Assembly (NCBI GenBank): GCA_030430385.1
Contig: JAUIFO010000012.1
Coordinates: 62,001-126,000 of the forward strand
Origin: Bacteroidia bacterium
Lineage (GTDB): Bacteria > Bacteroidota > Bacteroidia > Flavobacteriales > Flavobacteriaceae
Direction of reading: 5' to 3'
DNA length: 64,000 bases
In this document: positions 50,730-53,720 of the stretch, piece after piece
Layout: each line of letters starts with the position of its first letter
How positions within the stretch are numbered: the stretch's first letter is position 1
Notes under the pieces: model-generated
Told to the model about the DNA's origin: nothing
The model's input: only the letters and a program-made list of their open reading frames with translations
Databases searched by the model: none
Program-made: the position numbers and the translations under genes

Positions 50730-53720
50730 ATGAGTTATCATTTTAATGAGATAGAAGCCAAATGGCAAAAATATTGGTCAGAGCATCAGACTTTTAAAGC
50801 TAAAAACAACAGTGATAAGCCTAAATATTATGTGTTAGATATGTTTCCTTATCCTAGTGGAGCTGGTTTACATGTTGGTCATCCATTAGGTTATATTGCG
50901 AGTGATATTTATGCGCGTTATAAACGTCATAAAGGCTTTAATGTGTTGCACCCTCAAGGTTATGATAGTTTTGGGTTGCCTGCCGAGCAATATGCTATTC
51001 AAACAGGTCAGCATCCTGCAGTTACAACTGAAACAAACATCACCACCTATCGTCGTCAATTGGATAAGATTGGATTTTCGTTCGATTGGAGTAGAGAAGT
51101 GCGTACCAGTAATCCTGAGTATTACAAGTGGACACAATGGATCTTTATTCAATTATTTGAGTCGTATTATTGTAATGATGCTGATAAAGCACGTCCAATT
51201 TCAGAATTGATTGCTGTATTTGAAACTGAAGGGAATCAAACCATTAATGCAGCTTGTGATGATGATGTTATTCCTTTTTCTGCGGAAGAATGGAAGCAAT
51301 TTTCTTCGGAAAAACAGCAAGATATATTACTACAATACAGACTTACGTATTTAGCTGAAACGGAAGTGAATTGGTGCCCAGCACTCGGAACAGTTCTAGC
51401 AAATGACGAAATCGTCAATGGGGTTTCAGAACGTGGTGGTCATCCTGTTATTAGAAAGAAAATGACGCAATGGAGTATGCGGATTTCTGCTTATGCTGAA
51501 CGTTTGCTTCAAGGTTTGGAAACTATAGATTGGACAGATTCACTTAAGGAAAGTCAGCGTAATTGGATTGGAAAATCGGTTGGTGCAGCAGTAACGTTTA
51601 ATGTTATTCCGACGATGGTGACTGAGGCTCTCGAAGTCACCAAAAACACGGACACTTCGAGTACCTCAGTGTCCAGAACAATCGAAGTCTTCACCACACG
51701 ACCTGACACGATTTTCGGTGTGTCCTTCATGACCTTAGCACCAGAACATGAATTGGTTTCTAAAATCACAACTCCAGATCAAAAAGCTGAGGTTGAAGCG
51801 TACATTGAAGCCACAGCAAAACGAAGTGAACGTGATCGTATGGCAGATGTTAAAACCATCTCAGGAGCATTTACAGGTGCATATGCCGAGCATCCATTTA
51901 CCAAAGCTCCAATTCCAATTTGGATTGGCGATTATGTGTTGGCTGGCTACGGAACAGGTGCTGTAATGTCTGTGCCTTGTGGTGATCAACGTGATTATGA
52001 TTTTGCGAAACACTTTAATATTCCAATTCCAAATATTTTTGAAGGCGTTGATATTTCTGAAGAAGCTTTCGCTTCAAAGGATAATGTGAAAATTGCTAAC
52101 AGCGATTTCCTTAATGGAATGAACTACAAAAAAGCAACCAAACGTGCGATTTACGAATTAGAGCAATTAGGTCAAGGTAAAGGAAAAACCAATTACAGAT
52201 TGCGTGATGCGGTGTTTAGCAGACAACGTTATTGGGGCGAACCATTTCCTGTGTACTATGTCAACGGAAAACCACAAATGATCGATGCCAAGCATCTACC
52301 AATTGTTTTACCAGACGTTGAAAAATATTTGCCAACCGAAGAAGGCGAACCACCTTTAGGTCGCGCTGATGTTTGGGCTTGGGATACAAAACACAATAAA
52401 GTAGTATCTAATGATTTGGTGACTGAGGCTCTCGAAGTCACCTCTAATGATAATGTCATTCAGAGCGCTAGCGAAGAATCTCATTCTGTCGCGTCGAGCA
52501 TGTCACCTCGAGCGGAGTCGAGAGGTGAGACATTTCAAGATAACGGAATCTATCCTCTAGAACTCAACACCATGCCAGGTTGGGCAGGAAGTTCTTGGTA
52601 TTTCTTTAGATATATGGAAGAACAAGCCAATAGAGGTGACGCCTTTGCTTCTGAAGAGGCGTTAAAATATTGGGAGAATGTCGATTTATACATTGGTGGA
52701 AGCGAACACGCTACAGGACATTTATTATACGCACGTTTTTGGGTGAAGTTTTTAAACGATAGAGGCTTTGTTGGAGTTGATGAACCCTTTAAAAAGCTCA
52801 TTAACCAAGGGATGATTTTAGGGACGAGTGCTTTTGTCTACAGAGAAGAAGGAACAAATATCTTTTTGTCTAAAGGCTTAATTGATGGAAAAAATGTTCA
52901 AGCTATACATTCTGATGTGTCTTTTGTCAATGCTTCTGATGAATTAGATGTTGAAGCTTTTAAAAATTGGCGACCTGAGTTTAAAAAAGCAGAGTTTGTA
53001 TTAGAGGATGGGGTCTACAAAGTTGGTCGCGACGTCGAAAAAATGTCTAAGTCCAAATACAACGTTGTGAATCCAGACAATATTTGTGAGCAGTATGGTG
53101 CAGATAGTTTGCGTTTATACGAAATGTTTTTGGGGCCTTTAGAGCAAGCTAAACCCTGGAATACGGCAGGTATTACTGGTGTACATGGCTTTTTGAAAAA
53201 ACTTTGGAAGCTCTATGTTGGTCAAGACGGCTTAAATGTTAAGGATACTGAACCTACTAAAGACAACCTAAAAACCCTTCATAAAACCATCAAAAAAGTT
53301 GAGGACGATATTGAGAATTTTTCGTTCAATACATCAGTATCAACCTTTATGATTGCAGTTAATGAGTTGACCGCTCAAACGTGTACTAGCAAACAAATCC
53401 TAGAGCCATTATTGATTCTAATTTCACCTTATGCACCTCATATCGCTGAAGAATTATGGCAGCAGCTCGGACATACAAAGTCAATATCTACTGCAGCTTT
53501 TCCAATTTTTGAAGAAAAACATTTGGTTGAAAGCAGCAAGAATTATCCGATTTCATTTAACGGAAAAATGCGTTTTACACTTGAGCTTCCGTTAGATATG
53601 AGTAAAGAAGATATTGAAAAAACAGTGATGGCTCATGAAAAAACCATTGCACAATTGGATGGTCGTACACCTAAAAAAGTGATTGTGGTTCCTGGAAAAA
53701 TTGTCAATATTGTAGGATAG
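50730..53720 (+). CDS. leuS: Leucine--tRNA ligase with two in-frame repeat insertions
   Basis: 996 residues from ATG 50730; the TTG at 50706 would read through the promoter boxes. Class I catalytic motifs HVGH (48-51) and KMSKS (771-775) are present, as are the editing-domain [13 protein letters not shown] and GTGAVMSVP. Two stretches look foreign to the family. Around residues 296-316, between FNVIPT and IEVFTTRP, lies [19 protein letters not shown]. At about 563-602, before [13 protein letters not shown], lies [12 protein letters not shown] plus a Ser/Glu-rich segment. Both are encoded by palindromic repeats (51617, 52418). The frame stays open and all catalytic motifs remain, so the enzyme is probably functional. 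Confidence 0.96.
51617..51674. repeat. Inverted repeat pair inside leuS (editing-domain entry)
   Basis: Unit on plus, 51617-51641: stem GGTGAC/GTCACC, loop TGAGGCTCTCGAA. Unit on minus, 51650-51674: stem GGACAC/GTGTCC, loop TGAGGTACTCGAA. An 8-nt spacer separates them. The block adds about 20 codons in frame and reads VTEALEVT in the first unit. Confidence 0.85.
52418..52531. repeat. Composite repeat block inside leuS
   Basis: Three repeat types in a row. At 52418-52442 is a unit identical to the plus unit at 51617. At 52455-52481 is GTCATTCAGAGCG...GAAGAATCT, as at 1672. At 52502-52531 is GTCACCTCGAGCG...TCGAGAGGTGAGAC, a hairpin with CACCTCGA/TCGAGAGGTG arms. About 38 codons are added and the first unit is read in the same frame (VTEALEVT) as in the other leuS copy. 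Confidence 0.82.

Follow-up and report, generated by a model that had tools for sequence, protein, structure and literature searches.

The leucyl-tRNA synthetase gene (leuS) of a Flavobacteriaceae bacterium holds an inverted pair of short hairpin repeats that is read in frame at the entry of the editing domain. With high confidence, this pair is explained as an in-frame REP dimer between two beta-strands of the editing domain, with more REPs in another loop of LeuRS, all of it selfish, dispersed DNA that has been selected into tolerant loops. According to this explanation, a REP-type dimer would insert in frame at the entry of the editing (CP1) domain of leucyl-tRNA synthetase (LeuRS), and further REPs would insert at the second loop. 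The REPs would be selfish DNA dispersed mostly between genes, moving by transposition or by copying between REPs. The intragenic survivors would be those copies which keep the frame and lie in loops tolerating extra residues, the others having presumably been removed by selection. Insertion as such is suggested by the comparison between species.

Hairpin units in leuS

The window analysed here is the whole 64-kb stretch of DNA. Its relevant features are given below, with leuS starting at the ATG at 50730, which was favoured over an upstream TTG.

50730..53720, + strand: leuS, leucyl-tRNA synthetase, 996 aa, with the Pfam LeuRS editing domain and class I synthetase core
51600..51613, + strand: AATGTTATTCCGAC, encoding NVIP and part of T, perhaps a relic of the left end of an earlier GTCATTCC-type REP
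51617..51641, + strand: REP unit 1, GGTGACTGAGGCTCTCGAAGTCACC, translating as VTEALEVT
51650..51674, - strand: REP unit 2, inverted, GGACACTGAGGTACTCGAAGTGTCC, its top strand translating as DTSSTSVS
52418..52442, + strand: REP unit 3, of the family of units 1 and 2, at site B, translating again as VTEALEVT
52454..52481, + strand: degenerate TGTC-tagged REP (TGTCATTCAGAGCGCTAGCGAAGAATCT; one A.A mismatch), translating as VIQSASEES, its class assigned by comparison with L096, L033 and L091
52501..52530, + strand: TGTC-tagged REP, TGTCACCTCGAGCGGAGTCGAGAGGTGAGA, within a ten-residue peptide

Unit 1 (51617-51641, + strand) reads GGTGACT-GAGGCTCTCGA-AGTCACC and unit 2 (51650-51674, - strand) reads GGACACT-GAGGTACTCGA-AGTGTCC, both being 25 bp long with stems of 7 bp, or of 8 bp in unit 1 when the next T-A pair is counted. 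The first-pass annotation had described an inverted palindromic pair at 51617-51674, and its sequence, stems, loops and coordinates all proved correct; the frame, also said to be intact, is indeed open through the pair, leuS running uninterrupted over 996 aa. What had been overlooked is a second leuS insert at 52418-52534 (site B, the editing-domain entry being site A), composed of one unit of the same family (the TGAGGNNCTCGAA family, called after its core), a good TGTC-tagged unit and a degenerate one. A strict scan for GAG-N4..7-CGA with a perfect stem of at least 5 detected four units in the 64-kb window, all four within leuS, whereas 20 first-order Markov resamples held 2 units in total (0.1 on average). 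As single-stranded DNA, the unit 1/2 pair folds at -16 kcal/mol (z -4.9), a value equalled by none of 200 shuffles. The degenerate TGTC-tagged unit at 52454-52481 does not fold above its shuffles (z +0.59). A reading of the loop as tandem G.A mismatches was dropped, since in the predicted DNA structure of this family GAG is paired with CTC while GA is bulged out. Rfam at the gathering threshold gave no match in the 64-kb window, and a repeat search of 51400-51900 did not recover the pair, probably because the stem sequences of the two units differ.

Recurrent inserts at the editing-domain entry of relatives

Relatives were sampled as the best 80 of 584 LeuRS candidates in named genomes plus the 23 genomes of the genus, and the sample is therefore one of near relatives and not a random one. 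After removal of duplicates, broken sequences and partial pieces, 99 LeuRS were aligned, of which 21 are from the genus. Left out were L012 and L016, whose frames duplicate those of L091 and L107, the partial L108, L109/L156 (frame broken at assembly gaps), L112-L118 (second pieces of included genes) and L110/L111, which were superseded by the fuller L154/L155. L012 and L016 come from named Psychroserpens, and their LeuRS frames are identical to those of the same-genus genomes G003 and G014, which identifies the genus as that of Psychroserpens. Site classes were set by regular expressions written from inspected loop sequences of the relatives, because a unit scan with relaxed rules, allowing one mismatch, G-T pairs and one bulge, was too noisy; it gave 45 matches in the 99 LeuRS (15 at site A, 12 at site B and 18 elsewhere), where codon shuffles averaged 16.7, and was not used. 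Five labels were set manually: one false site A match was turned to plain, three site B rows to EES, and L040 to the simple-repeat class.

The insert is absent in many of these relatives. The plain site A loop, with 13 or 14 residues after KSVGA, is found in 55 of the 99 LeuRS, against 32 residues in the window protein; the first-pass annotation had allowed for a segment of the same length in most Flavobacteriaceae LeuRS, which is not what the alignment contains. REP-type inserts occur in 26 sequences and belong to six classes, and the remainder comprises nine simple-repeat-like loops (six of normal length), six other long loops and three of the DUF559 type. By length, 38 of the 99 loops exceed the plain form, and 26 of these 38 spell REP-type DNA. 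Of the 21 genus sequences, 11 have a plain site A and 16 a plain site B. On a LeuRS tree computed without the two loops, REP presence at site A requires at least 22 changes (random mean 23.1), to be read as changes of state and not as independent gains because the tree is of a single gene, has some weak nodes and may be affected by allele exchange. Sister pairs differing at this site are L073/L076 (support 1.0) and L009/L011 (0.999). As the REP-type inserts, present in 26 of 99, are scattered over the gene tree, site A is no ordinary family loop, and it appears to be a spot where selfish DNA lands again and again.

The fine structure of the loop may preserve traces of earlier inserts. All 8 genes of the KQS and GGEES classes at site A have the repeat tag placed at the codon for the valine of FNV. 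When all site A classes are pooled, GTC encodes this valine in 14 of 44 non-plain genes as against 2 of 55 plain genes, and the plain loop was for this reason dropped as the source of the GTC tag. The NVIP of the window is GTYATTCC in DNA and resembles the way in which a tagged REP begins on its left side, here of an older insert; a whole GTCATTCCGACAGAGC..GAGGAATCT REP begins at the NVIP codon in L024 and L045. Judged from these sequences, the unit 1/2 pair may be nested within an older insert, of which NVIP would be the left end.

Two side observations concern other variable DNA in the gene. Simple-repeat-like DNA (FRIQNSEFRI, PTTNNQ) is a recurrent filling of site A loops, as in L020, L034, L055, L056, L036, L040 and others. 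Furthermore, the LeuRS stretch at query residues of about 705-726, presumably the leucine-specific domain, is strongly variable, with 12-71 extra residues at one column in 30 of the 99 sequences. Obvious REP sequence is absent from this stretch in the 99 sequences.

The second loop and a possible exchange of alleles

At site B, 80 of the 99 LeuRS are plain and 14 are of REP type by pattern, one of them (L025) having normal length; the remaining five comprise three loops with inverted-repeat sequence, an HSELVSES-type insert and a further long loop. The 15 carriers require at least 12 changes on the LeuRS tree (random mean 14.2), and the sister pair L083/L049 (support 1.0) differs at this site. 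An inverted pair of the TGAGGNNCTCGAA family is found at site B in Aestuariivivens insulae (L024).

The scatter of inserts might also come from exchange of LeuRS loop alleles by short-tract recombination or horizontal transfer, or from one old insertion followed by many losses and turnover of repeat classes. Such an account is possible, at a rather low probability, and is compatible with the preferred explanation. It finds support in the pattern (D)NG[IV][YF], which stands just downstream in 15 of 15 site B REP-or-similar carriers and in none of the 84 others, and which simple independent insertion at site B does not explain. Flank identity among the site B carriers is also in weak excess (p 0.038-0.097 for three flank sizes). 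However, the flanks of site A show no significant excess identity (p 0.06-0.34), one site carries different REP classes, and sister pairs differ in class, all of which argues against this account.

Structural setting of the insert

The editing-domain model, built from 42 sequences, has a mean pLDDT of 83.6 with the two insert blocks at about 50, and positions the insert between strands E8-18 and E43-48. PDB matches to this model are led by LeuRS structures, the LeuRS of T. thermophilus being the first. AlphaFold was also run on the full-length protein with 28 close sequences, and the resulting model (mean pLDDT 57) was set aside from the argument. The insert is thus predicted, at low model confidence, to join two neighbouring beta-strands within the editing domain. 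Moreover, the editing motif is intact in the window LeuRS, with TTRPDT and a further stretch of 19 residues. The 19 extra site A residues are expected to be translated and kept in the protein, and they are most likely near-neutral for editing.

The insert could alternatively have been recruited, the extra loop tuning editing or tRNA binding, or an mRNA hairpin regulating leuS. The stability of the paired units as RNA (-31.9 kcal/mol, z -4.1) agrees with this, as does an MLKHVQHD..HSELVSES insert which is kept with few changes in two congeners, L092 and L107. Yet recruitment is improbable, because the insert is absent in more than half of the relatives, its classes differ, and REPs are also found in unrelated enzymes.

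The repeat family in the genome and beyond

The core TGAGGNNCTCGAA has 27 copies in the 3.23-Mb genome, and its reversed pattern has none. With ORFs called mechanically, 18 copies are intergenic, six are inside genes and three are ambiguous, these last lying in a C-terminal tail, in a 92-aa frame and at a doubtful start codon. The six intragenic copies stand in open frames, three in leuS and one each in purL, an lpxH-like gene and the alpha-2-macroglobulin gene. The count genome-wide and inside ORFs, which the first-pass annotation had proposed as a check, thus describes a multicopy and dispersed repeat. In the broad sense of the term, the family consists of REPs: stem-loop palindromes sharing a motif in many copies per genome (27 against 0 for the control) and mostly extragenic (18 of 27). 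A perfect stem of at least 4 is present in 22 of the 27 copies.

The hairpin stems covary. When the 27 copies are aligned on the core, 29 cells are altered on both sides, as compared with a shuffle mean of 7.8; none of 500 shuffles is as high, and slid structures reach at most 13. A second measure is less clear, with 7 pairs altered on both sides against 4.9, matched by 31 of 500 shuffles. Watson-Crick pairing at stem positions 1-7 holds in 26, 24, 24, 22, 18, 12 and 12 of the 27 copies, respectively. This pairing could be kept by selection on the hairpin or by template-switching repair.

Outside the source genome, the 13-base core occurs in 0-5 copies in each of 22 same-genus genomes, the total of 17 against 13 for the reversed control indicating that, within the genus, the family is particular to the source species. 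In the wider family, a 14-mer is present in 16 of 299 Flavobacteriaceae genomes, with a single reversed control over all. It has 13 copies in the source genome and 11, 10, 8, 7, 4 and 3 in six others; at least three copies are found in these seven of the 299 genomes, the source included, and the genera are scattered. In four of these genomes, 20 stretches were inspected and held hairpins built alike, with compensated stems. As an observation apart, units of the family form a tandem array with a 23-bp period in one genome (G055; L216, 1009-1096).

Template switching would keep stems complementary as well, and the palindromes could in that case have arisen in place as immobile quasipalindromes. 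Such a local origin is very improbable for a core found 27 times in the genome and again in other genera. An ordinary family loop with chance repeat-like DNA has a negligible probability: the same loop is also unequal in length in the LeuRS of other bacteria in PDB alignments, but 55 of 99 loops are plain at 13 or 14 residues and the control counts are 0 and 0.1.

In-frame REPs in other genes

In the own genome, in-frame REP units (L120, L129, L131, L137 and L144) were recorded beyond leuS in the following genes.

PurL, two sites; alpha-2-macroglobulin, two sites: in-frame REP units
RNase R; LpxH-like phosphoesterase; 2-oxoacid dehydrogenase E2: in-frame REP units

The names LpxH and RNase R are a reading of the sequence and hence putative, Pfam giving a metallophosphoesterase and an RNB domain. 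REP classes other than the TGAGGNNCTCGAA family stand in frame in purL, RNase R, 2-oxoacid dehydrogenase E2 and alpha-2-macroglobulin, in a census that is partial because the stretches were picked around pattern matches. The second linker of PurL has a REP dimer in 3 of 22 genus sequences (L190, which is the own sequence, L191 and L209). The first linker exceeds its shortest form in 12 of the 21 sequences covering it, and in 7 of these 12 the extra residues are serine-rich and without repeat character.

Relation to known REP systems

The CGTC superfamily of REPs was described by Di Nocera, De Gregorio and Rocco (2013; PMC3733652). Their report treats CGTC and GTAG REPs, dimers, and REPs inside genes, tRNA synthetases included. 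Therein, the Rickettsia elements RPE-4 and RPE-6 are CGTC REPs, RPE-1 is called a longer palindromic insertion, and CGTC repeats occur in Bacteroidetes among others, with no dedicated transposase known for them. In-frame CGTC REPs are given for unspecified tRNA synthetases of X. oryzae, E. 'lithoralis' and S. alaskensis, and two Xanthomonas species have different REPs at about one recB site. In-frame REPs as such are already known, Rickettsia included.

The present family resembles the CGTC superfamily (PMC3733652) in its short hairpins, often paired, mostly intergenic and sometimes in frame. It differs in having no CGTC/TGTC tag in any of 22 units with a stem of at least 4. Repeated occupation of the same two LeuRS loops by REPs in one bacterial family likewise had no counterpart among the papers listed. 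The GAG-N6-CGA class of the own genome carries a CGTC/TGTC tag in 12 of 17 units, one of them in leuS. To GTAG REPs and RAYT (REPtrons), the likeness lies in REP-type hairpins and paired units; however, the GTAG tag is absent by eye beside the 27 copies, and Y1_Tnp is absent from the genome. With RPE-1 of Rickettsia, as mentioned in PMC3733652, the family shares palindromic DNA in frame in probably working genes, represented here by the leuS, purL, lpxH-like and alpha-2-macroglobulin frames, which are open through the units. The parallel with the palindromic elements of Rickettsia, drawn by the first-pass annotation, holds as a way of life and not as demonstrated common descent, since the present hairpins are of 25 bp and without the CGTC tag of RPE-4 and RPE-6. 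Among the papers listed from the open-licence PMC literature, none was on REPs in flavobacterial LeuRS or on their recurrence at its loops. As far as searched, both the untagged family, failing the two described tags, and the repeated use of the same LeuRS loops by different REP classes are new.

Candidate movers

Y1_Tnp (PF01797) has no match in the own genome (G000, 99.9% complete), nor in G106, another genome carrying the TGAGGNNCTCGAA family. Matches are present in 7 of the 9 family-holding genomes tested, strong in G028 and G249 and weak in G055, G095, G305, G153 and G221, and in 5 of 23 genomes of the genus; such a match does not separate RAYT from IS200-type enzymes. No one mover fits the family. 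The units may have spread through a transposase that was lost or came from elsewhere, through one REP being copied onto another, or through exchange of alleles.

DUF559 cassettes at the same loop

Three congeners (G008, G012 and G022) have an in-frame DUF559 domain at LeuRS site A, the gene of G012 being broken further on at assembly gaps. DUF559 is taken here to be a nuclease-type domain, PD-(D/E)XK-like. When 397 Flavobacteriaceae genomes were searched with this domain, 120 gave a match at E <= 1e-15, and 40 loci were inspected, namely the best 20 of the matches and 20 picked mainly for long open frames. These 40 lie at LeuRS site A (21), in MetH at two sites (9), in RecG (4), in IleRS (2), fused before HemD (3) and after HisD (1), with 8 of the 40 host names confirmed by Pfam and the others assigned from sequence motifs. 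Many further matches, in frames of about 120-200 aa, look stand-alone.

LeuRS site A, same genus: L154 (2417-2890), L155, L156
LeuRS site A, other genera: L236-L251, L253-L255, L269, L270
RecG: L256-L258, L275
MetH, two sites: L259-L265, L267, L268
IleRS: L252, L266

The DUF559-bearing LeuRS frames are open over 1078-1251 aa, except L254 (860 aa) and the gap-broken L156, and the MetH frame L260 holds two copies. In a tree of 52 DUF559 domains, seven of them stand-alone, the domains group mostly by host gene, with exceptions among the LeuRS copies, and IvDF and EvDG..H are preserved in most of the 52. Inverted ends were found at one MetH, one IleRS and one LeuRS copy; they were not found at two RecG copies and one MetH copy. 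By title and abstract start, none of the papers retrieved that mention DUF559 deals with in-frame cassettes in housekeeping enzymes. The cassettes are hypothesized to be homing elements. Tentatively, the entry loop of the LeuRS editing domain may be used by two unrelated non-spliced in-frame selfish DNAs, the REP hairpins and the DUF559 cassette, in which case the REPs may be passengers, scars or blockers. The cassettes would then sit at fixed LeuRS, MetH, RecG and IleRS sites, mostly by host gene, as homing elements would.

Implications

The source genome harbours an untagged REP family, and its search for Y1 transposases gave no match. Should the DUF559 observation stand, it would point to nuclease cassettes, inserted in frame, as a class of their own in housekeeping enzymes; if the reading of two kinds of selfish DNA at one loop is true, they would represent a novel type of homing element, with the host enzyme working without splicing. 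According to the preferred explanation by REPs selected into tolerant loops, selfish DNA would have lengthened an essential translation enzyme time and again at the same loops in members of one bacterial family. Owing to this recurrence, the entry and survival of intragenic REPs become testable with closely related species.
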